This document shows positions 2,601-29,855 of a stretch of 34,430 nucleotides of DNA, piece after piece. This DNA comes from Candidatus Mediterraneibacter norwichensis (lineage in GTDB: Bacteria > Bacillota > Clostridia > Lachnospirales > Lachnospiraceae). Where the stretch lies: NCBI GenBank assembly GCA_019112765.1, contig DXIU01000006.1, positions 1-34,430 on the forward strand, in the 5' to 3' direction. How positions within the stretch are numbered: the stretch's first letter is position 1; the number at the start of each line of letters is the position of its first letter. The notes beneath the pieces were generated by a model. It worked only from the letters and a program-made list of their open reading frames with translations, searched no databases and was not told where the DNA came from. The translations under genes and the position numbers were made by a program.

Positions 2601-3182
2601 TTAACCGACTTCCGTAAACAACGGCGTGGAGTAATACCGATCCCCGGAATCCGGCAGCAGCGCCACAATCGTTTTCCCTTTATTCTCCGGTCTTCGCGCC
2701 AGTTCAACAGCTGCTCTCCGGCACAAAGCCTGCGCCGATTCCCTGAATCTTATGCTTTCCTGCCTTTCCTTCAGAGAGAACCGGAGAGCCTTCCGGTTCT
2801 ACAGCCGCGATGCTTATATCCGGGTTCTGTTCTTTTAAGTATTCTCCGACTCCTGTGATCGTTCCGCCGGTTCCCACTCCTGCCACAAAAATATCGATTT
2901 TTCCGTCCGTATCACGCCAGATCTCCGGACCGGTACCTGATCTGTGCGCCGCCGGATTCGCAGGATTTTCAAACTGTCCGGGGATAAAGCTGTCCGGGAT
3001 CTCTGCCGCCAGCTCCTGCGCCCTGGCAATAGCTCCTTTCATCCCCTTTGCCCCGTCCGTCAGCACCAGCTCTGCACCGTATGCCTTTAAAATATTTCTG
3101 CGCTCCACGCTCATAGTCTCCGGCATGGTCAGAATGATCCTGTAGCCTTTTGCCGCAGCGATTGCCGCAAGCCGCTCCTTCT
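2601..3182 (-). pseudogene. cysK: Cysteine synthase A remnant (5' truncated, internal deletion with frameshift)
   Basis: [47 protein letters not shown]...[17 protein letters not shown]...GIGAGFVPE then stop; the C-terminus [37 protein letters not shown] continues in another frame. N-terminal PLP-lysine part and the segment between GAGFVP and AAVELA are missing. Confidence 0.85.
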
Positions 3183-13878: not shown

Positions 13879-14331
13879 TCAGTGTCCGGCAATTTCCTGA
13901 AGCATCTGAAGCGTACTGTCCAGATTTTCACTGTGCCAGTTTCCCTCAGTCAGGCTGCCTCCCAGCATTCCTGAACTGCGCAGGGCACTCAGTTCTTTCT
14001 GCTGTGCTGACAGTGTTATAACGTCTTTCTCTGTCCGGATTGTAATGTGATAATTCAGCGCTGCGTCTTTTATTTCCACATCCATAATTTCAGAAAAAGG
14101 AATAACCAGCGCCGCGTCTTTTTTCAGGCCCCAGTCCAGCCTGCCAAAGGAAACAAGAACAAGCTCATCCCGACAGATCTGCAGGGCAAAAAACTCTGTA
14201 CTTACCCCCAGAAATCTGACAATGGCATCACTTAAATTCGCCGGAGCATAAGATACAATAATACTCTTATTCTCAATCGGTTCAAAACCGGCTTCTCTGA
14301 TAATTTCCCATACTTTCGCTTCTTTTGCCAT
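13879..14331 (-). CDS. Small hypothetical protein, PH-domain-like (bPH) fold suspected
   Basis: 150 aa; FFALQICRDELVLVSFGRLDWGLKKDAALVIPFSEIMDVEIKDAALNYHITIRTEKDVITLSAQQKE has a PH-like beta pattern; AAGGAGG RBS. Confidence 0.6.
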   Translation of the reverse strand: MAKEAKVWEIIREAGFEPIENKSIIVSYAPANLSDAIVRFLGVSTEFFALQICRDELVLVSFGRLDWGLKKDAALVIPFSEIMDVEIKDAALNYHITIRTEKDVITLSAQQKELSALRSSGMLGGSLTEGNWHSENLDSTLQMLQEIAGH

Positions 14332-14359
14332 ACTGCAAAACCTCCTTCATTCAGATGAT

Positions 14360-14388
14360 ATTATATTTTTGCATATCTCTCTGACCAA
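14360..14388 (-). promoter_or_regulatory. Promoter of the PH-like gene
   Basis: Minus strand TTGGTC-N17-TATAAT. Confidence 0.72.
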
Positions 14389-14393
14389 AGGAG

Positions 14394-14433
14394 GTTTTTT
14401 GCCTGAAATGCCCGTTTCGTGCCTGAATGTCCC
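14394..14433 (-). promoter_or_regulatory. Tandem 20-bp direct repeat just upstream of the -35, candidate response-regulator site
   Basis: Minus strand GGGACATTCAGGCACGAAAC followed directly by GGGCATTTCAGGCAAAAAAC (15/20 identical), ending 5 bp from the -35. Confidence 0.65.
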
Positions 14434-14441
14434 GGAATAAC

Positions 14442-15182
14442 TTACGCATTGAGCAGACTCATTAATTCATACTTTGCTTTACGGGAGAAGGGACATTCTT
14501 CCCCGTTCGTAAAGATAATCTTCATTTCCTTTATATCCAGCAGTCTGATCCTCTGTGTATTTACCAGATACGCGCGATGTACACGCATAAATTTTCCGCT
14601 CATGGTTTTCTGCAGTTCCCGGATGCTTCCCGTAAAATCCATATTTTCTTTTAATCCGTGCAGAATAATGCGGTGGCTTTTTCCGCCGGTTTCAAAGTAA
14701 ATAATTTCGTCAACCGGAATATGCCGGACTGTATCCATGAATTTAACCGTAAAATATTCCCCGTCCTCTCCCTGTTCTTCTTTAAGGCGATCTTTAATAA
14801 TTTCAAGACATTTCCTGATGCCCCGGAACATTTCCTCTCTGCCATCTTTCACAATATAATCCAGCGCTTCCAGCTTATACCGGAATGTATCAAAAGCCAG
14901 TTCACCGTAAGCTGTAACATAAATAAGAAAGCCCCGCGGATCCAGCTTTCTGACCGCCTGTCCCAGTGTAAATCCCGTATATCGATCATTCTTCAGATCA
15001 ACGTCCAGAAAGAAAATACCCCGCTTCCCGTTTTTCGCAGCGGCGTCCAGCACTTCTTCCGGGCTGCCGCTGTCACAGATGATCTTCATATCATAACCAG
15101 AAATCAGAATTTCTTTTTCCAGTTCTTTTCTTATCTCCCTGCGGACTGCCGCTTCATCATCACATAAATATATAGGAATCAT
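14442..15182 (-). CDS. LytTR-family DNA-binding response regulator
   Basis: REC domain (MIPIYLCDDEAAVRREI, IFFLDVDLKNDRYTGF, FLIYVTAYGELAFDTF) and LytTR domain (VDEIIYFETGGKSHRIILHG...FMRVHRAYLVNTQRIRLLD). Confidence 0.94.
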   Translation of the reverse strand: MIPIYLCDDEAAVRREIRKELEKEILISGYDMKIICDSGSPEEVLDAAAKNGKRGIFFLDVDLKNDRYTGFTLGQAVRKLDPRGFLIYVTAYGELAFDTFRYKLEALDYIVKDGREEMFRGIRKCLEIIKDRLKEEQGEDGEYFTVKFMDTVRHIPVDEIIYFETGGKSHRIILHGLKENMDFTGSIRELQKTMSGKFMRVHRAYLVNTQRIRLLDIKEMKIIFTNGEECPFSRKAKYELMSLLNA

Positions 15183-16588
15183 ATTCTTCTCTCTCCTGTT
15201 CCGATATTGAGTTCCTGAACAAACAGGCCGTCCTCCTCATATGACCGTGAAGAGACGTTATCATATGACTCGACTATGCGCCGCAGACTTGCAAGACCTA
15301 TCCCTCTTCCCGGTCCTTTTGTAGAATATCCGTTCTTCCATATTTTCGAGAGGGGCACCGGTTCTTTAACCGGATTTCGAATGATAATACTTACTCCTGA
15401 TTCATCCCCACAAAACAATGCCGTCACTTTACAGTGCTTTTTATCTTCCGAGGATTCCATGGATTTCTGAAGGAAAGCTTCCGTTTCTTCCATCGCATTA
15501 TCCAGAAGAATCCCTGCTGCCCTGCACAGATCCCCCGCCGGAATATCGACCTCTGTAATGGCAGCCGGCGCTTCCAGCCGGAAAGGAATTCCCCGCTGTT
15601 CCATTTCGGATACTTTAACAGCAATCAGACCCTTCAACTCTGTTACCTGAATATTGCCGAGCTGGGAAATCTGAAATATCTTCTCCCCCATTTTCTTTTC
15701 AAAATCTCCCGTCACTTCAGAAATAAATGTCTGAACCGCCTTCAGGTCGCCCTCATCAGCCTGAATCCGGATTCCCGCCATCCTGTTCTTAAAATCATGC
15801 CGGAAAACTCTCACATCACGCTGGACACTTTCAAGACTCTGTATATACATTTTCTGCTGCTCCAGACTGGCCTGCTGCTCCTGAAGCTGTTTCTTCTGTA
15901 TGCCGCAGCGGAATGTATCGTTCAGAACCCCCATAACAAGCAGCAGAAACAGAAGGGAAATCATTGGATTGCTGTTATTCAGCACCAGGCGTTCGTTTGC
16001 AATCTCAACACTCAGTATTTTCAGAACCGGCAGCAGAATAATAACCGCTTTCCAGAGATAATTTTTTCTGTCCGCTGAAAGGAAACCGTTATATACTTCA
16101 TGGAGCCGGAGCTTTAATATAATACCGGATACAATTATTCCGAGAAGCAGAATTTCTGCTATGGAGCTCACCATGTACATCATCAGCTCACCGGGAATAC
16201 TCAGATCAAAATTTCCCCGGATAAAAAAGCCTCCTAGTTCCTCCAGCGTGCCGTACAAAAATACTGTCATTGCCCCGGTAAGCAAAGACTTTTCCCAGCA
16301 CAGCCGGTATGCGGTATGCAGAACGAGGGTCCATCCCGCACTCTCGAGAAAACTGACTATCACTACAAAGAACACATTGCCGAACAGGTTTTTCATAAAA
16401 AATACTGAAGAAGGCAAAACGATAATCAGACAGTATGGTATAAACATCAGGCCTGCCATTTTCAGCGAAGGTTTCTGCTTTATCAGAGCATATGTTAGAA
16501 TAATACAGCAGATATATTCCGATAAAACAAGTGGAATATTCAGTAAAAAGACAATTGCATAGGTATATTCCATGTCCATAATCTCCAA
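15179..16588 (-). CDS. Sensor histidine kinase, GHKL domain (AgrC-like)
   Basis: N-terminal TM helices, VFRHDFKNRMAGIRI H-box, AGILLDNAMEETEAF N-box, GRGIGLASLRRIVESYDN G-box; overlaps the response regulator by 4 bp. Confidence 0.93.
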   Translation of the reverse strand: MEIMDMEYTYAIVFLLNIPLVLSEYICCIILTYALIKQKPSLKMAGLMFIPYCLIIVLPSSVFFMKNLFGNVFFVVIVSFLESAGWTLVLHTAYRLCWEKSLLTGAMTVFLYGTLEELGGFFIRGNFDLSIPGELMMYMVSSIAEILLLGIIVSGIILKLRLHEVYNGFLSADRKNYLWKAVIILLPVLKILSVEIANERLVLNNSNPMISLLFLLLVMGVLNDTFRCGIQKKQLQEQQASLEQQKMYIQSLESVQRDVRVFRHDFKNRMAGIRIQADEGDLKAVQTFISEVTGDFEKKMGEKIFQISQLGNIQVTELKGLIAVKVSEMEQRGIPFRLEAPAAITEVDIPAGDLCRAAGILLDNAMEETEAFLQKSMESSEDKKHCKVTALFCGDESGVSIIIRNPVKEPVPLSKIWKNGYSTKGPGRGIGLASLRRIVESYDNVSSRSYEEDGLFVQELNIGTGERRI

Positions 16589-16683
16589 ACAATAAATATA
16601 AAAAGTAGTTTTATCAAATCATTCATGGTCTGTAAAGCCTTGTTTATTATACCGTATCCAAATCCCTCTGAAAAGATATTTAT

Positions 16684-20925: not shown

Positions 20926-21714
20926 TCATACAGTCAGTACGAATTTTTCTCCTTCTACTTCTGTTACCCCAAGTGTGATTCCGTACAGTTCACGGATGCT
21001 TTCCGGCGTAATAATCTCATCCGGAGCTCCCTCCGCTGCCACATGTCCGTCTTTCAGACCGATAATCCTGTCTGAATAGTGGATAGCCTGATTCATATCA
21101 TGGAGTACCATAATAATCGTAATCCCGTATTCCCTGTTCAGCTTCTGCACCAGCTTCAGGATCTCGATCTGATATCGGATATCCAGATACGTGGTCGGTT
21201 CATCCAGAAACAGAATCTTTGTATTCTGGGCAAGCGCCATGGCGATCCAGACTCTCTGCCGCTGGCCGCCGGAAAGACGGCTGATCTCCCGGTCCCTGTA
21301 TTTTTCTGTATTGGTTACTTCCATTGCCCACCGGATCTGTCTCTCATCCGCTTCACTGCGGCCCTGCATCAGTTTCATATAAGGAGTTCTGCCGAAGGAT
21401 ACCAGACGCTCTGCCGTGATGTCGTCCGCCGAAGAGTTGTACTGGTGCACAATAGATACTTTTCTCGCAAATTCTTTCAGCGCAAGATTCTGAATATTCT
21501 TCCCCCGCAGGAAAATATTTCCTTTTCCCGGATAAAGATTCCGGGTCATCAGATTAAACAGCGTGGATTTCCCGCATCCGTTTGCCCCCATGATCGTCGT
21601 AATCTTTCCTTCCTCTATCTGAAAAGAAGTATCCTTAAGCACCCAATTCTTTCCATAGGAAAAGGACAGATTCCGCACTTCCATGGCAGGCTTCTTATTT
21701 CCTTCATGCTGCAT
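20926..21714 (-). CDS. Heme/siderophore ABC transporter ATP-binding protein (FhuC/FecE-like)
   Basis: GANGCGKSTLFNLMTRNLYPGKGNIFLRGKNIQ, LSGGQRQRVWIAMALAQNTKILFLDEPTTYLDI. Confidence 0.93.
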   Translation of the reverse strand: MQHEGNKKPAMEVRNLSFSYGKNWVLKDTSFQIEEGKITTIMGANGCGKSTLFNLMTRNLYPGKGNIFLRGKNIQNLALKEFARKVSIVHQYNSSADDITAERLVSFGRTPYMKLMQGRSEADERQIRWAMEVTNTEKYRDREISRLSGGQRQRVWIAMALAQNTKILFLDEPTTYLDIRYQIEILKLVQKLNREYGITIIMVLHDMNQAIHYSDRIIGLKDGHVAAEGAPDEIITPESIRELYGITLGVTEVEGEKFVLTV

Positions 21715-22759
21715 ACTTCTTTGACCTCCTTAACAGAATAATAAAGAACGGGCCTCCGATCACACTCATAATAATTAAGGCAGACACTTCGTAGGGCGCC
21801 GCCACCGTTCTGCCGATGGTATCTGCCAGCAGAAATGTAAAGGCGCCCGCCAGCATGGAAAAGGGTACCAGCGCCCGGTGGTCGCTTCCCACAAGAATTC
21901 TTCCGATATGAGGCACGATCAGTCCCAGAAAACTGATGGCTCCCGCCACCGCTGTAGAAATACTGGCCAGCAGTACTGCAATCAGAGAAATCAGGATGCG
22001 CATCAGATTCACATTGACCCCCAGTCCTCTTGCCGTTTTATCCTCCAGAGACATCAGGTTGCATATTTTTGAAAAAAGAACTGCAAGAATCAGTCCCACG
22101 ATTACATAAGGCAGAAGTGTCTGCACGTCCTCCCATGTCTTCTGGGTAATATTTCCCTCAACAATAGACGCCACCCCGGAAGAATTTCCTCCGGTCATGG
22201 AGTTCAGGGCGTCCGAAAGGCCCGTAAACATGGCGTTCACCGCTACACCTGTCAGAATAATACGCAGGGGACTTAATCCGCCTTTCCAGGACAGGCTGTA
22301 TACAAGAAAGAAGGCCAGAATTCCTCCCGCGAACGCGAACAGAGGCGTGAAAAAATAAAGAGACGGCAGAAAAGCCGTAACCAGCACCGCCACAAAACTG
22401 GCGCCGCCTGAAATTCCGATAATTCCCGGGTCTGCCAGAGGATTTTTCAGCACTGCCTGAAACAGCACGCCGGAAACAGCCACCGCCGCCCCCGCGAACA
22501 GGGAAATGACGATCCGCGGGAACCGGAGATCATAGATTGCCGCCACATTTTCCATTCGCTCAATGAACAGTCCCCGGAACAGTTCTCCCGGCGAAACCTG
22601 AAGACTTCCTATATTGACGGAAGCAAAGATCAGAACCGCCAGAAGCGCCGCCATGATCAGAAAGGACAGGACCGCCCTGGCGTGCTTTCTTTTCTTCCGG
22701 ATCTGATCCTGTCTGCAGGGCTCATCTCTTCCCTGCAGGCTTTCTCTTTCTTCCTTCAT
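21704..22759 (-). CDS. isdF: Heme/siderophore ABC transporter permease, FecCD family (IsdF-like)
   Basis: RFPRIVISLFAGAAVAVSGVLFQAVLKNPLADPGIIGISGGASF; AGAISFLGLIVPHIGRILVGSDHRALVPFSMLAGA. Confidence 0.88.
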   Translation of the reverse strand: MKEERESLQGRDEPCRQDQIRKKRKHARAVLSFLIMAALLAVLIFASVNIGSLQVSPGELFRGLFIERMENVAAIYDLRFPRIVISLFAGAAVAVSGVLFQAVLKNPLADPGIIGISGGASFVAVLVTAFLPSLYFFTPLFAFAGGILAFFLVYSLSWKGGLSPLRIILTGVAVNAMFTGLSDALNSMTGGNSSGVASIVEGNITQKTWEDVQTLLPYVIVGLILAVLFSKICNLMSLEDKTARGLGVNVNLMRILISLIAVLLASISTAVAGAISFLGLIVPHIGRILVGSDHRALVPFSMLAGAFTFLLADTIGRTVAAPYEVSALIIMSVIGGPFFIILLRRSKKYAA

Positions 22760-22771
22760 GGTTTTCCCTCC

Positions 22772-23905
22772 TTACTTTGTAATCTCCTGCAGCGTTTCTT
22801 CGTCAATCTTTTCCGAGGCCTCGCTGTCTTCTGCCGCTTTCGCCGCATTCTCGCTGTTCTTCTGTGCCTGGGCCGCGTCTTCCTCTGTTTCCGGATAAAG
22901 CATGGGCTGCAGCTCCTCCAGAGCCTCCGGATAATTGAAATTGGCGCTCATGCCGAACAGCTCATAGGTCAGGTCATAAACCCTCCCCTCCTGCACCGCT
23001 GTGAAATGCTGCCAGATGTCGCTGGTCTGAAACTCTTCATCGAACATTTCGATTACCTGATCCGGGAGAGCATGGGCTGCCCGGAGGATCACATCCGGTT
23101 CTTTTGACTGCATATCTTCTGTATTGACAGTCAGGAACTCCTGGTCCGTTCCTGCATAAACATTCTCTCCGCCGGCCAGCTCCACAAGACTTCCTACATA
23201 GGAATTTTCCGTAGCAATGATATAGCTTCCGGGCAGTCCCATAAGAATCAGCACTTTCGGACTTTCCTTTCCTTCATTCCGGGTACTGTAGTCCTCATAA
23301 AATTCCGTGAACTCATCTGCCATTTCCCGGGCCTGCTCCTCCCGTCCGAAGATTTCTCCCAGTTCCTGAATGGAACGGTACATGCCGGGAACACTTCTTA
23401 AATTCAGAAACGCCCAGTCTGTATCAATGGCCTCATATTTGGGCTGAAGATCGGACTGCAGACTTGCCGGACTCAGGATCCAGTCCGGATCAAGAGACGC
23501 CACGACCTCCATATCCGGGCTCATGGAAGTACCCACTTCTTCCACTTCCGCATACCGCTCCGGCAGATTGGAAATGGAGCTGGAGCACACACCCACCAGA
23601 TCCAGTTCCAGTCGGTCACAGATCTCTGCGGTTGCCGGTGACGTAGCGATAATCCGGGGATCTCCCTCCATAGCGGCCACCTTCGCCTTTGCCGCCTCTA
23701 CCGCCGCTTTTTCCTCCGGATCCGTAATCTCCAGAAGCGTCTGCGCACTTTCCGCCGGATTCCCGGAACCGTCCCCGGTCTGCCCGGAAGCGCCTCCGCT
23801 CTGATCCACACATCCCGCAAGGAGACCGCAGGCCAGAGCCGTGCACGCCAGGGCTTTGCAGATTCTGTTTTTTTCTTCTGTAATCCTAATCTTCATCATC
23901 GTCAT
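22772..23905 (-). CDS. isdE: Heme ABC transporter substrate-binding lipoprotein (IsdE-like)
   Basis: Lipobox LLAGC; IIATSPATAEICDRLELDLVGVCSSSISNLPERYAEVEEVGTSMSPDMEVVASLDPDWILSP. Confidence 0.87.
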   Translation of the reverse strand: MTMMKIRITEEKNRICKALACTALACGLLAGCVDQSGGASGQTGDGSGNPAESAQTLLEITDPEEKAAVEAAKAKVAAMEGDPRIIATSPATAEICDRLELDLVGVCSSSISNLPERYAEVEEVGTSMSPDMEVVASLDPDWILSPASLQSDLQPKYEAIDTDWAFLNLRSVPGMYRSIQELGEIFGREEQAREMADEFTEFYEDYSTRNEGKESPKVLILMGLPGSYIIATENSYVGSLVELAGGENVYAGTDQEFLTVNTEDMQSKEPDVILRAAHALPDQVIEMFDEEFQTSDIWQHFTAVQEGRVYDLTYELFGMSANFNYPEALEELQPMLYPETEEDAAQAQKNSENAAKAAEDSEASEKIDEETLQEITK

Positions 23906-24911
23906 ATCCTCCGCCCCATCTCCGCCAGTTTTTCCGGAAGAAATATACGATCAGAGCCGCTGCTCCCATCAGAATCAGGCCGGATATGGTAACCGCCGCC
24001 CCAACGGCAAACGGTCCGTTTCCGCCGGATCCTCTGTCTGTCTCTGAAGCAGAAGCCTGCTCTTCCGTAGACAGACTTAATCCCTGAGCGTCATTCAGCT
24101 CCGTATCTGCAGCGCTGTCCCCGGAGGGCGCTGCCGCCTCTTCAATGGAACTGGATAATGCCGGAGCCTCCTCCGTATCTTCTCCTTCTTCTGAAGTCTG
24201 GCTGTCCTCAGAGCCGGAAGAACTTAAGCTGCCGCTCTGCAGGGAAGATCCTGCTGTGCCGGTTCCTGTATTTCCGCTGCCGGTATCTGTACTGCCGCTG
24301 CCGGATCCGCCGGAACTCCCTGAACTGCCGCCGGATGTACTGCTGCCGGAAGCGGAAGTTACAATTGTTGCATTCATATCCGTACTGTTTCCCGCGGTAT
24401 AATCACTGGGATAGAGATAAAAGATTACGTCTCTTCCCATCGGCTCTACATACATGGACCCCCGGACCACGCAGTTCTCGCTTGGCACCTGAATGCAGAT
24501 ATCTGCCGTTGCTCCGTTACTGTCTGTTCCGTTTCCCGTTACGCCCAGCGCCGGAGTGGACCAGCCGGAATCCCCCACATTCTGCACCCAGAAACTGTGC
24601 CCGGAGGTATAGTCCATCAGACTCATGCGGATCGTCAGATAATATTCTCCGCTGTCTGTCAGCTCCAGAATCCCTGTGGTATAGACGGCTCCGTCCACCA
24701 TGCCCTGTCCGGTGGCGTAAGACGCCTCTCCGCCGGAGTCCTCGATCACTCCGGTAACCGGATGCGCGTAGCAGGGATGAATTACGCAGGTATACACGCT
24801 GCCGCCGGCCGCCTTTACCGGAAGCGGCTCTGCTCCTGCGCCCGTAACTGCAAGCAGCAGAGCCGCCAGCAGCCCGGCAAACACTTTTTTCACTCTTTTT
24901 CCTGTTTTCAT
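23886..24911 (-). CDS. NEAT/Shp-like heme-binding protein with Ser/Gly linker and C-terminal TM anchor
   Basis: Signal peptide; YTCVIHPCYAHPVTGVIEDSGG...MYVEPMGRDVIFYLYPSDY; low-complexity linker; C-terminal TM AVGAAVTISGLILMGAAALIVYFF with KNWRRW and no obvious sorting motif. Confidence 0.85.
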   Translation of the reverse strand: MKTGKRVKKVFAGLLAALLLAVTGAGAEPLPVKAAGGSVYTCVIHPCYAHPVTGVIEDSGGEASYATGQGMVDGAVYTTGILELTDSGEYYLTIRMSLMDYTSGHSFWVQNVGDSGWSTPALGVTGNGTDSNGATADICIQVPSENCVVRGSMYVEPMGRDVIFYLYPSDYTAGNSTDMNATIVTSASGSSTSGGSSGSSGGSGSGSTDTGSGNTGTGTAGSSLQSGSLSSSGSEDSQTSEEGEDTEEAPALSSSIEEAAAPSGDSAADTELNDAQGLSLSTEEQASASETDRGSGGNGPFAVGAAVTISGLILMGAAALIVYFFRKNWRRWGGGYDDDED

Positions 24912-25030
24912 CCGTTTCTCCTGCCTTCTGTCTGAATAATCAGGCGGATATTCCCGATCCGCCCCGCTGCCTCCTCATAACCGGAAAGGAGCCGCATACT
25001 CTCCGCAGCTCCTTCCCGCTCTAAAAGGGG

Positions 25031-27304
25031 CTATCTGCTTTCCTTCTTCCCCCGTCTCTTTTCCAGGATTCCGGCTCCAAGAACCCCGCATCCGATCACA
25101 AGCAGGGCTGCCCATCCTCTGATATCCTCTGACGTATCGCCGGTCTTTACACTGGAAGCAGAGGACAGACCGCTGCCCAGAGAAGAACCGCCCAGTGAAC
25201 TGCCGCCCAGTGAATTTCCTCCAAGGGATGCCCCTCCCAGAGTGCTGCCGCCCGGGAGACCCGAACCGCCGTCTAATCCGCTGCCGCCGTTCAGACCGCT
25301 GCCGTCATCATCACCGTCATCCTGGTTTCCGTTTCCGGGCTCATTATCATCTGTGAAGGCCGGGTCATCTTCTTCTGCCGCTTCCAGCGTATCCCAGTCA
25401 AGGGCCAGGAATACCGGCTGTGTCCCCACGCCTTCCGCGATGGATTCCATAATCGGCACGAATACCTGGAGCGGCGCATAACCGTCTTCCAGAGCTTCCG
25501 GAATCAGTTCAAACGTCACCTGATCCGGATAATCTGTGCCATAGTCGTCACTGACCCTTGTGCCGTCTTCATTCAGCTGGTAGGACTCCACCACTGCGTC
25601 TGCCAGCTCTCCCGCCGGATTGCCGTACTGATCCTGGGTATAGCCGGTGAGGAAGTACTTCAGGCCTCCAAGATAACCCAGCTGCCCGCTGATATTCAGG
25701 CCCTTCAGATCCAGGGTAATATAATACTTTCCATCTCTTACCGTCAGCTTTATGGTATGGTTAATCGCATTGTCAGACATGGAAAGGGTGGTCTTATCTG
25801 TCTTCACCATTCTGCCGGTTATGGAATAGACGCCGTCTTCCAGATTATAAATATCCAGTTCACCGCTTCCCGGGTCGTCCGGATCTTCCGTGCCTCCCGG
25901 ATTGTCCGGATCCTCCGTGTCTCCCGGATTGTCCGGATCTCCGGTGTTCCCCGGATCATCCGGATCTGCGGCGCCGTCCCCGCAGGTTATGGTAAAGGTA
26001 GTAACGCCTGTATAATTCCCCGGAGCCGCGGCACCCACATCCTTCCCGGATATGATAATTCTTCCATAAAGCGCGGTTTCCTCTGAATCGCTTCCCTTAC
26101 TCTCTGTCCCATCTGCCTGAAAAGACTGGGTGCCGAAATCATTGGCAAACGCCAGCTCATTGTCTCCGCTGTACAAAAGCCCGCCCTCCGGCGCGCTGAC
26201 CGTCACGGTTCCGTTTCTGTTTTCCGTGGATACCCGGATCTCATATTCCTGTATATTATCGGAAACCGCAGTCAGTTTTCCCATAGAAAGGGAAGAGGGA
26301 ACTGACACAATACAGGAGGGAGAGGATGTTTCTTCCTCGATATCCGCCGAGATTTCCATATCCTTTTCTTCAGTGCTTTCATCCCCGTCTGTTCCTGTTT
26401 CCTGCTTTTTCAGCGTATCCCAGTACATTGTTACAATCGTCTTTACGCTGAACCTGCCGTTTTCAAACAGAATCCCGCTGATCTCGCCGTTCAGATTGCT
26501 CATAGCCGGCACATAGATATAAGTATTGTTGTAATAATACTGACTCAGCCCGGTCAGAGGGAATGACACATCCGTTACCACTGTGTATCCGTTTCTTTCC
26601 TCAGTGCTGTAATCCACTCCGTCCATGGTCAGTTCCTGTTCCGGATCGTTGTCTGTGTAATATCCGTTGAACCCGAGAATATACATAGGCTCCTGATCGG
26701 TCCCTGACACCATCCGATAGGACAGGCGCATCTGCCCGTCTTCCTCTACCGTAAGCACGGCATCCGCCGTCTCCGTCTGCACCAGGCTGTGGTCTACCAC
26801 ATCACTGCGGACTGCTACGGTCACATCATAAGTTCCCGGTTCCGGCGTTTCCGACGGCACAGCGGGCACACTGCTGTCAGACAGATCCAGTCCCAGTGCG
26901 TCCGCCACCGCTTCCTTAATTCCGTTGGAGGAATATGTGGCGCCGGACACTGCGTCAATCTCTTTCAGGCTGTCCGTATCCGTATCTTCAAGCCCCAGAA
27001 AACTTCCTGCCATGCCCTCAATGGCAGAGGCAAGTTTCGTCTTGTTGACTTCCGCGTAAGTTCCCCCGAAGTTGGCTCCTGTAATTGTAATATCCGTAAT
27101 CTTTCCGTCTGTTACCGTTACGTCTGCGTCAATATCATATTCACCGAACTGGTCAATATGGAACGTACCGCTCTTTGTATAGGAACCGGCCCTTTCCTCT
27201 GCAGTCCCGCTTTCCGCCTGCACGGCCGGGCCGGCCGGAACTGCTGCCAGAATCCCTGCCAGAAGCAGAAGACCCCATCTTTTCTTTCCTCTTTTTCTTC
27301 CCAT
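25031..27304 (-). CDS. Surface protein: FMN_bind domain, two NEAT-like domains, a shared beta module, C-terminal SVKTG-type sorting signal
   Basis: FMN_bind motif DAVSGATYSSNGI; NEAT-like segments PGTYDVTVAVRSDVV...YIYVPAMSNLNG and EDGVYSITGRMVKTDK...VFVPIMESIAEG; C-terminus SVKTGDTSEDIRGWAALLVIGCGVLGAGILEKRRGKKESR. Confidence 0.85.
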   Translation of the reverse strand: MGRKRGKKRWGLLLLAGILAAVPAGPAVQAESGTAEERAGSYTKSGTFHIDQFGEYDIDADVTVTDGKITDITITGANFGGTYAEVNKTKLASAIEGMAGSFLGLEDTDTDSLKEIDAVSGATYSSNGIKEAVADALGLDLSDSSVPAVPSETPEPGTYDVTVAVRSDVVDHSLVQTETADAVLTVEEDGQMRLSYRMVSGTDQEPMYILGFNGYYTDNDPEQELTMDGVDYSTEERNGYTVVTDVSFPLTGLSQYYYNNTYIYVPAMSNLNGEISGILFENGRFSVKTIVTMYWDTLKKQETGTDGDESTEEKDMEISADIEEETSSPSCIVSVPSSLSMGKLTAVSDNIQEYEIRVSTENRNGTVTVSAPEGGLLYSGDNELAFANDFGTQSFQADGTESKGSDSEETALYGRIIISGKDVGAAAPGNYTGVTTFTITCGDGAADPDDPGNTGDPDNPGDTEDPDNPGGTEDPDDPGSGELDIYNLEDGVYSITGRMVKTDKTTLSMSDNAINHTIKLTVRDGKYYITLDLKGLNISGQLGYLGGLKYFLTGYTQDQYGNPAGELADAVVESYQLNEDGTRVSDDYGTDYPDQVTFELIPEALEDGYAPLQVFVPIMESIAEGVGTQPVFLALDWDTLEAAEEDDPAFTDDNEPGNGNQDDGDDDGSGLNGGSGLDGGSGLPGGSTLGGASLGGNSLGGSSLGGSSLGSGLSSASSVKTGDTSEDIRGWAALLVIGCGVLGAGILEKRRGKKESR
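25164..25306 (-). repeat. Repeat encoding Gly/Ser/Leu-rich linker
   Basis: GGSGLNGGSGLDGGSGLPGGSTLGGASLGGNSLGGSSLGGSSLGSGLS. Confidence 0.8.
25864..25972 (-). repeat. 27-nt tandem repeat encoding DPDNPGGTE-type linker
   Basis: DPDDPGNTG-DPDNPGDTE-DPDNPGGTE-DPDDPGSG. Confidence 0.85.
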
Positions 27305-27335
27305 CGTTTCCTCCGTCAACCAGCGTCATCCCCGG

Positions 27336-27377
27336 AAAAACAGGAATCCTCACGGACAGACTGCCTGAGGATTCCTG
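27336..27377 (-). terminator. Intra-operon terminator between the first NEAT gene and the FMN_bind-NEAT gene
   Basis: Minus strand: perfect 12-bp stem CAGGAATCCTCA-N13-TGAGGATTCCTG followed by TTTTT. Confidence 0.82.
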
Positions 27378-27399
27378 ATTCTGATACTGACGCTTTTTC

Positions 27400-28341
27400 T
27401 TATTCTGCTGCGTATGTAATGGAGAATGTTGTTGTGCCTGTGTAATTTCCTGCTGCCGCAGCCTTTACATCCTCAGCGGACACGCTGATCTTTCCGCTCA
27501 GCTTTGTTCCTGCTGTGTCGTCATTTACTGTCTGTGTGCCGAAGCTGTTGGCAAATGCCAGAGAATTGTCTCCGCTTGTCAGGCTGCCCTCTCCGGGAGC
27601 TGTCACAGACAGCGTGCCGTTCAGATCAGAAGCTTTCACGTCCACCGCATATACCATTGCGTTATTCCGCTCAGCGCTCAGTGTTCCCATTGCGACAGAG
27701 GAAGGAACGGTTACCGTATAGGACGGTGCGGAAACTGTCTCTTCAACATCTGCCGTAATCTGCATATCCTGGGTATCCTCATCCGGTGTCTGTGTTCCGC
27801 CGGCAGACTGCAGATCTGTTACCTGTACGAAGAAGTTCTGAGTAGAATTCATTACTACATTCACATATGCGCTTGCGGATACAGTTCCTGCCTCCAGGTC
27901 ATCCACCGCATCCCGGGGAAGAGTAACTGTAAGTACCTGCGTGGGAAGAACATCTCCTTCGTTCACGCCGAACAGAGCTGCCGTAGTATCAAATTCCTTT
28001 TCCGGTTTTGTGGTAATATCAGACTCTGCCTCATACTCTGTTTCGTCTACTGTAAATACAACATCCAGAACTGTTCCGTCTGTCCCCTGATCCGGGAACG
28101 CGGGAATCGGATAAGCCACGTAGAATGTCAGTTCCGCCTCCGTATCTGTAAGGGTCAGATCTGCCTCATGCACAAAAATCGGATCACACATACTCTTGTT
28201 TCCCGAGCCGTTGGCATTCAGGAAATGAATCTCTCCCGTATAGTCTCCGTTGGCCGGCTCCGCCGCGAACGCGGTGCCGCACATCATTGTTGTCATCATT
28301 GCTGCCGCCAGGGCGCCTGATAATAATTTCTTCAGTCTCAT
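27400..28341 (-). CDS. Secreted NEAT-like protein with a C-terminal beta module shared with the 25031-27304 protein
   Basis: Signal peptide ALAAAMMTTMMCGTAFAAEPA; NEAT-like GDYTGEIHFLNANGSGNKSMCDPIF...SASAYVNVVMNSTQNFFVQV; C-terminal SAPSYTVTVPSSVAMGTLSAERNNAMVYAVDVKASDLNGTLSVTAPGEGSLTSGDNSLAFANSFGTQ; no sorting motif. Confidence 0.8.
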   Translation of the reverse strand: MRLKKLLSGALAAAMMTTMMCGTAFAAEPANGDYTGEIHFLNANGSGNKSMCDPIFVHEADLTLTDTEAELTFYVAYPIPAFPDQGTDGTVLDVVFTVDETEYEAESDITTKPEKEFDTTAALFGVNEGDVLPTQVLTVTLPRDAVDDLEAGTVSASAYVNVVMNSTQNFFVQVTDLQSAGGTQTPDEDTQDMQITADVEETVSAPSYTVTVPSSVAMGTLSAERNNAMVYAVDVKASDLNGTLSVTAPGEGSLTSGDNSLAFANSFGTQTVNDDTAGTKLSGKISVSAEDVKAAAAGNYTGTTTFSITYAAE

Positions 28342-28400
28342 AACTGATTCTCCCTTCTATGGTTTGTTTTATTTATGTTAAGCGCCGCCGCGCCGTAACA

Positions 28401-28883
28401 TCATTCTTTTACCACAAGCGTACAGTTTACTTCCGCCCCGTTTCTGGGCGTCATGTCCTCATCCGCGGTGAACGTGTCATATTTTACCGTCAGCGGATAC
28501 TCGCCTGCCTCCATTGCTTTTTCAAGAGTGATCTCATACAGATGCTGTCCCGGTCTGATCAGTTTTGACGTATATATCGTCTCATCTGTATCCGGAAGGT
28601 AAAAAGAAATCTGAAAATACACTTCATTTTCCTCCGGATTCATCAGCTCCACTGAGACATCCGTCTTCCCCGCGGGAATGGTAATGGATTTATAGCCCGG
28701 TATCTGAATCCCCGCAGATACGCCGCCGGCCTGATCCTCCTTATCCGGCTTTTCCTGATCTTCCTCAAATTCCGCATCATAATTTGTAACTTCTTTCGGT
28801 CGTGTGTGCAGATACATCGCCGCGGCGCCCGCCACAAGTATGAGAATTACAATCAGTAGGATAATCTTCTTTTTTCGATTCAT
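28401..28883 (-). CDS. Small membrane-anchored extracellular protein of unknown function
   Basis: N-terminal TM KKKIILLIVILILVAGAAAMYLH; beta-rich GIQIPGYKSITIPAGKTDVSVELMNPEENEVYFQISFYLP...; first gene of the NEAT operon. Confidence 0.78.
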   Translation of the reverse strand: MNRKKKIILLIVILILVAGAAAMYLHTRPKEVTNYDAEFEEDQEKPDKEDQAGGVSAGIQIPGYKSITIPAGKTDVSVELMNPEENEVYFQISFYLPDTDETIYTSKLIRPGQHLYEITLEKAMEAGEYPLTVKYDTFTADEDMTPRNGAEVNCTLVVKE

Positions 28884-28910
28884 GTTTTTCAGCTCCAGCT
28901 CACTTTTTAG

Positions 28911-28924
28911 TTAGTTTACGCTAA
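28911..28924. promoter_or_regulatory. TTAG-N6-CTAA operator (proximal, NEAT operon)
   Basis: TTAG-TTTACG-CTAA. Confidence 0.75.
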
Positions 28925-28973
28925 CCTATGCGGTAAAAATTAACCCGCGCGAATCTTTTTCACATCGCGCGAG

Positions 28974-28987
28974 TTAGTTTTTTCTAA
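28974..28987. promoter_or_regulatory. TTAG-N6-CTAA operator (distal, NEAT operon)
   Basis: TTAG-TTTTTT-CTAA, at the predicted transcription start; 63 bp (about 6 helical turns) from the proximal site. Confidence 0.78.
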
Positions 28988-28995
28988 CTACTGGC

Positions 28996-29025
28996 ATACT
29001 ATCATACATTTCCAGATTCTGTCAA
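28996..29025 (-). promoter_or_regulatory. Candidate NEAT operon promoter
   Basis: Minus strand TTGACA-N18-TAGTAT. Confidence 0.6.
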
Positions 29026-29048
29026 TCAAGGTTATTGTTATAAAATTA

Positions 29049-29855
29049 TCAATTATCATTTTCCCTGATCTGAACAGGCCGGGCATCTATACACACCGCA
29101 TGCACGGCAAACCGGGTACTGTAGCCGCTGCCGGTGCAGGTAGACAGGGTCATTATCTTCTGGCTGCTGTCCGGATGAATTCCTGTTTCTATGAGTGAAT
29201 TTTCCACCATGCTGTTAATCAGGTTCTGATATTCCATGCCCGGCTCATAGCCGATCTTATATACACTTCCCCCGTTTGCCGCGTTCTGGCAGGCAAAAAT
29301 CTGATACCGGTACGCCATGGTCTCCGTGTAAAGCGTAAAATACGGATTTTTCTCCCAGAATGTCTGCTCCTTATATTTGTCCAGACTGCCGAACATGCTC
29401 CCGTCCCTCATATTATGCCCATATATAATTATATAGTGATCCGAAAAATCCGGCTGATTCAGGCCTTCCAGAAAGATGCTTCCCGCAGTATGTTCCCTTC
29501 CGTACAGATCGTGCCTTAAATACTCTGTGTTATCCCCGGAATACAGAACCGGATAATCTATTTCCAGTTCTTCCGGATTGTCAGACCTCAGCCATGCCAC
29601 AATATCTGCATTCTCCTTTTTCAGCGCATCGAACCGGACGACAACATCCGTCAGCCACCAGTCTTCCTTCTGCTCTCCTGCGGGTCCCTCCGGCGCGTCT
29701 GTATAACGGTCGCGGAGATCCTCATAGGCTGCGGCAGAGCTCAGATTGTCCAGGCAGTCCGGAAGAATCTTCCACAGCGCGGTTCCCGCAAGCGCCAGGC
29801 CGCACAGCACAAGGCATATCCATTTTTTTGATTTTTTTATTTGTTTTCTGTTCAT
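29049..29855 (-). CDS. srtB: Class B sortase
   Basis: YPVLYSGDNTEYLRHDLYGREHTAGSIFLEGLNQPDFSDHYIIIYGHNMRDGSMFGSLDKY; catalytic TLSTCTGSGYSTRFAVHAV. Confidence 0.93.
   Translation of the reverse strand: MNRKQIKKSKKWICLVLCGLALAGTALWKILPDCLDNLSSAAAYEDLRDRYTDAPEGPAGEQKEDWWLTDVVVRFDALKKENADIVAWLRSDNPEELEIDYPVLYSGDNTEYLRHDLYGREHTAGSIFLEGLNQPDFSDHYIIIYGHNMRDGSMFGSLDKYKEQTFWEKNPYFTLYTETMAYRYQIFACQNAANGGSVYKIGYEPGMEYQNLINSMVENSLIETGIHPDSSQKIMTLSTCTGSGYSTRFAVHAVCIDARPVQIRENDN

Follow-up and report, generated by a model that had tools for sequence, protein, structure and literature searches.

A putatively LytTR-regulated PH-like gene with a predicted anti-Shine-Dalgarno arm against read-through transcripts in Lachnospiraceae

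Introduction

The ComD/ComE system of S. pneumoniae and the AgrC/AgrA system combine a GHKL kinase and a REC-LytTR regulator with tandem half-sites about 21 bp apart that lie at a fixed distance from the -10 or the transcription start site (TSS) (PMC6560143). The published ComE site reads [TNYWVTTBRGR]-N11-[ACADTTGAGR]-N42-TSS (PMC6560143); with 42 nucleotides behind the right half-site, the distance from box to -10 is about 30-31 bp. The LytTR regulators of LRS (HdrRM, BrsRM) likewise act at tandem repeats that immediately precede a promoter; these systems include a membrane inhibitor and activate the operon that encodes them (PMC6193735). At the level of translation, long upstream-initiated transcripts of the phage T4 genes e (lysozyme), soc, 49 and I-TevI hide the Shine-Dalgarno sequence (SD), and those from the proximal promoter, which do not have the 5' arm, are translated (PMC3014915).

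Here we describe a locus of Candidatus Mediterraneibacter norwichensis, found in a stretch of 34,430 nucleotides (contig DXIU01000006.1, from here on the window), that shares with ComD/ComE and AgrC/AgrA the kinase, the regulator, the tandem half-sites and the fixed distance to the start. Unlike them, it has no recognised adjacent peptide, exporter or AgrB, and a single target was seen, the downstream PH-like gene, with no box at the kinase operon. Its predicted transcript-selective masking of the SD is analogous to that of T4 gene e; unlike T4, the locus is chromosomal and the proximal promoter would be driven by a regulator encoded on the long transcript itself. Insertion sequences use a comparable fold-back protection. 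The LytTR systems of gut Lachnospiraceae are, to our knowledge, little studied, and a limited search of the open-access literature found no description of a LytTR/PH module in this family or of a transcript-selective mechanism at a LytTR target. The two mRNAs of the two-component-regulated ugtS-ugtL locus of Salmonella also differ in what gets translated, although there it is the longer mRNA that allows translation of ugtS and the mechanism differs (PMC8896665). The parts are known singly and are ordinary; their combination is unusual, conserved and testable.

Genes of the module

The genes of the locus and the promoter-like site in front of them are the following:

16646..16674, minus strand: putative promoter of the kinase-regulator operon, TTTTCA-17-TATAAT (promoter scan)
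15179..16588, minus strand: AgrC/ComD-like GHKL sensor histidine kinase, 469 aa (Pfam HATPase_c_5, 1.3e-9)
14442..15182, minus strand: AgrA/ComE-like LytTR response regulator, 246 aa (LytTR 3.3e-18, Response_reg 1.2e-7)
13879..14331, minus strand: PH-like output protein, 150 aa (AF2 model, Foldseek)

The kinase retains its catalytic boxes (H-box 263, N-box 363, G-box 427) and matched the NCBIfam AgrC model with 1.4e-33, under the cut-off. The regulator gene overlaps that of the kinase by a few bases; the closest solved relative of its product in the PDB is pneumococcal ComE (4cbv, E 3.2e-25), and residues D8, D9, D60 and K112, as well as H170, N208 and R234, are invariant across 11 relatives. 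A REC and LytTR regulator beside a GHKL kinase with conserved catalytic residues is the arrangement of the AgrA/ComE type. Membership of agr quorum sensing was rejected, the scores against the equivalog cut-offs being 143 versus 400 bits for AgrA and 116.7 versus 500 for AgrC; agrB and agrD were not recognised at the locus, and only a partial AgrB-like match was found, on another contig. The locus is not an LRS either: the regulator carries a receiver domain and is partnered by a kinase, the box stands at the output gene, and no LytTR box was visible at the promoter-like site upstream of the kinase.

The PH-like gene begins 110 bp after the regulator gene. Its product was under every Pfam cut-off (bPH_3, PF14470, 12.9 versus 23 bits), and a sequence search gave no solved homologue. 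The AF2 model (pLDDT 72-76) is beta-rich with a C-terminal helix, and nearly all its top Foldseek matches are PH/PTB-like but weak (E about 1e-3, TM about 0.4-0.5); a PH-like fold is predicted with moderate confidence. Going by this fold alone, we would guess at a membrane- or peptide-binding adaptor.

Relatives were gathered by whole-genome searches and one scan of named genomes, setting aside L012/L030, where the PH match is 24% identical and lies in a mobile-element-like region with no LytTR pair. A three-gene signalling module had been proposed in an earlier reading of the window alone (the original prediction), and the order kinase, regulator, PH gene is found again in other genera. An ortholog of the regulator was present in 7 of 58 genomes of the genus, all 7 among the holders of the PH gene; no match was obtained for carriage of this gene on plasmids.

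The tandem LytTR box and its promoter

The original prediction had placed a perfectly phased 20-bp direct repeat upstream of the PH-like gene, and this was confirmed: GGGACATTCAGGCACGAAAC (14433-14414) and GGGCATTTCAGGCAAAAAAC (14413-14394), both on the minus strand, abut exactly and are identical at 15/20 positions, an identity reached at offset 20 nowhere else in the whole window. The elements recognised by comparison of related loci are:

14422..14431, minus strand: left LytTR half-site, GACATTCAGG
14402..14411, minus strand: right LytTR half-site, GCATTTCAGG, 20 bp downstream of the left one
14365..14370, minus strand: -10 in the conserved register, AAAAAT preceded by TGC, +31 from the box (19-locus comparison)
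14360..14365, minus strand: alternative -10, TATAAT, +36 from the box, 5 bp past AAAAAT and inside the hairpin loop described below (promoter scan, sequence)

Two half-sites of about 10 bp, 20-21 bp apart, were found in 19 loci from several Lachnospiraceae genera; these loci are related to one another, and counts over them are not independent. The right half-site varies among them as ACATTTCAGG and ACCGTTTGGG, and as ACCATTGGCG in a clade whose regulator is 41-45% identical. Regulator and box co-occur and co-diverge, with TTYRGGC in the near clade and RTTGGCG in the 41-45% one. Moreover, the box is kept in every case where the three genes occur together, a point on which the original prediction depended. 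Its further statement that the repeat core differs from the published LytTR consensus did not hold, since the window's own left half-site (...ATTCAGG) fits the TTBRGR of the ComE motif TNYWVTTBRGR.

A scan for further tandem sites, which had also been suggested, found TTCAGGCANNNAACNNNNNNTTCAGGCA perfectly matched at one place only in the 2.6-Mb genome, that at the PH-like gene, the runner-up having 2 mismatches. In 9 genomes, loose searches for the box found about as many matches as a reversed-pattern control, the PH-gene site excepted, and so returned no further regulon members; the box therefore appears to be dedicated to the PH-like gene.

The promoter fared less evenly. TTGGTC (14388-14383), a 17-bp spacer and TATAAT (14365-14360) are all in place, 5 bp from the repeat as had been described, but TTGGTC is not conserved: no -35 is shared among the 19 loci, as expected at an activator site. 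A -10-like hexamer with A2 and T6 stands at +31 after the right half-site in 19/19 loci, with at most 5/19 at any other offset. The window's own hexamer in this register, AAAAAT, is poor. Half-site spacing and distance to the start are the same as for ComE, and a tandem LytTR box at a fixed distance from the -10 is, on comparative grounds, conserved in several Lachnospiraceae genera. Because box and -10 geometry match those of ComE, the closest PDB relative of the regulator, the comparison lends good support to the original proposal, in which the PH-like gene is activated by the adjacent LytTR/GHKL pair.

A predicted anti-Shine-Dalgarno hairpin behind the box

The original prediction saw the repeat and promoter of 14340-14433 and overlooked a hairpin at 14402-14335, and with it a possible anti-SD role. 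This hairpin is strong (-28.2 kcal/mol, z -5.3, 0/200 shuffles), and its arms are:

14388..14398, minus strand: anti-Shine-Dalgarno arm, AAAACCTCCTT, directly behind the box, between box and -10, within a longer stem 14402-14373 (folding, covariation)
14337..14347, minus strand: ribosome-site arm, AAGGAGGTTTT, complementary to 14398-14388 and holding the SD GGAGG, 14345-14341 (folding, sequence)

According to computed folding, opening the SD costs 12.9-13.5 kcal/mol for any RNA with its 5' end at or upstream of 14402, and 12.2 when the end is at 14398, falling to 2.0 at 14390 and 0.6 at 14370-14358. The same contrast was obtained in 10/12 Mediterraneibacter-type loci (long RNA 3.4-13.0, short RNA 0.3-2.4 kcal/mol), and it was still seen in loci with 60 to nearly 200 nt more between the two arms. 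When the 31 nt holding the arm were shuffled, 0/100 were as strong in 7 loci, and 1/100, 6/100 and 10/100 in three others; L015 and L016 are individually weak. Against a background of 50 genes, PH genes account for 3 of the top 4 long-minus-short differences, that of the window being the largest. A -10 at +31 or +36 predicts a proximal start 3' of the arm in all loci.

Eight distinct arm pairs show 83% pairing, a count lowered by some alignment rows that pair in a shifted register, and four pairs have two-sided changes. The covariation score is 0.298 versus 0.137 +/- 0.045 for shuffled pairings (1/500), and slid pairings reach at most 0.127. Judged from these alignments, compensatory changes preserve the pairing of arm and SD in relatives; as in T4 gene e, the 5' arm of the long RNA is predicted to pair with the SD. 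The leaders of L014 and L078 differ from that of the close relative L015 by an insert of about 190 bp between -10 and SD; the insert has internal inverted repeats, leaves both arms intact and is perhaps a small mobile repeat.

Decay of the pair and a probable terminator in the distant clade

No working arm was found in 2/12 loci, L004 (M. catenae), with deletions in kinase and regulator, and L006, with a kinase deletion; its loss in these two decayed loci is expected if the arm matters only with a live regulator. The pair is damaged or lost, and the PH gene kept, in M. catenae (L004/L031), L027, L025/L026, L079 and L087, which suggests that the PH protein may be useful without the pair. Deletions within or of the pair occurred repeatedly, in L031, L027, L025, L026, L079 and L087, and the PH gene of L079 itself has an early stop. 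Counter to that expectation for the arm, L010/L011 retain both arm and box with hardly anything left of the pair. At L072:2573, a PH gene has three tandem half-sites upstream and is located behind a GGDEF-protein gene, with no adjacent LytTR regulator.

The arm effect was absent from the distant clade. Instead, L073, L075, L084/L085 and L088 carry a strong terminator-like hairpin (-22.6 to -30.1 kcal/mol) with T-runs behind it, placed upstream of the box and downstream of the regulator gene or of an intervening gene; L074 has a weak terminator only, and in L086 no clear terminator and no significant arm effect were found. In the window only about 10 bp separate the regulator stop codon from the repeats, too few to accommodate a terminator. 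We read arm and terminator as two probable ways of insulating the same output gene from read-through. In L074, L075, L084 and L088 of this clade, the gene downstream of the PH gene encodes a DUF3267 putative zincin peptidase.

Proposed mechanism and alternative explanations

From sequence, conservation, geometry, computed folding and compensatory changes we infer binding, activation, start sites, read-through and a translational block, as follows. Kinase and regulator would be transcribed from their own promoter and, there being no terminator behind them, polymerase could run into the PH-like gene. On this long RNA the anti-SD arm would fold onto the SD of the PH-like gene and block its translation. 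Once the kinase is stimulated, the phosphorylated regulator would bind the tandem box and recruit polymerase to the -10 located 31 bp downstream, which has no good -35. A start inside or beyond the hairpin loop would leave out the 5' arm, so that the ribosome site of the short mRNA would be open and the PH-like protein made. The protein would be co-transcribed with its regulators, yet made only when the regulator fires. We consider it quite probable that the PH-like gene is silenced in read-through transcripts and switched on by the LytTR regulator from its own promoter. The broader claim, that a chromosomal two-component output gene co-transcribed with its regulators is translated only from a regulator-activated start by means of an arm between LytTR box and -10, and that arm and intrinsic terminator are interchangeable insulators in one intergenic slot across Lachnospiraceae, seems to us reasonably likely.

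The box and promoter might be real and the hairpin incidental, or only an attenuator or terminator for the regulator mRNA. The 3' arm of the window does end in TTTT, and in distant relatives a terminator fills the corresponding place; in the relatives, however, the sequence after the 3' arm is ATAA and not a U-run, the terminator scan listed nothing at the hairpin, and the paired region has the SD at its centre and is preserved by compensatory changes, making this account unlikely. Occlusion of the SD by a 5' arm is also the usual output of riboswitches, and a hairpin this stable (z -5.3) would suit a ligand- or temperature-sensing leader on the long RNA. Such a leader is extremely improbable given that Rfam gave no match up to E 1, that the loop ranges from about 40 to over 200 nt without being conserved, and that its one conserved element is the -10 rather than an aptamer-like core.

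That the box is the site of another LytTR regulator, or that the adjacent one represses through it, is suggested by the boxes kept without an intact adjacent regulator in L010/L011 and L072. We hold both versions to be very unlikely, as regulator and box co-occur and co-diverge and a box just upstream of a -10 with no -35 is in the position of an activator. Activation through the box, with the arm silencing the long RNA, is the reading we prefer. It would supply a simple sequence rule, with an anti-SD arm placed after the activator box and before the -10, for genes that have to remain off even when transcription runs on from an operon next to them; were the rule general, such genes would wrongly be taken as expressed in operon prediction and RNA-seq counts. 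For gut Lachnospiraceae, it would further delimit a sensing module of three genes together with its exact operator.

Other features of the window

A cysteine-synthase-like reading frame at 2704-3126 is only 140 aa long and is apparently a broken or partial gene. At 20926-29855, a row of ABC importer genes, several secreted repeat-rich or anchored proteins and a sortase-like gene are reminiscent of a haem/iron surface-uptake locus.
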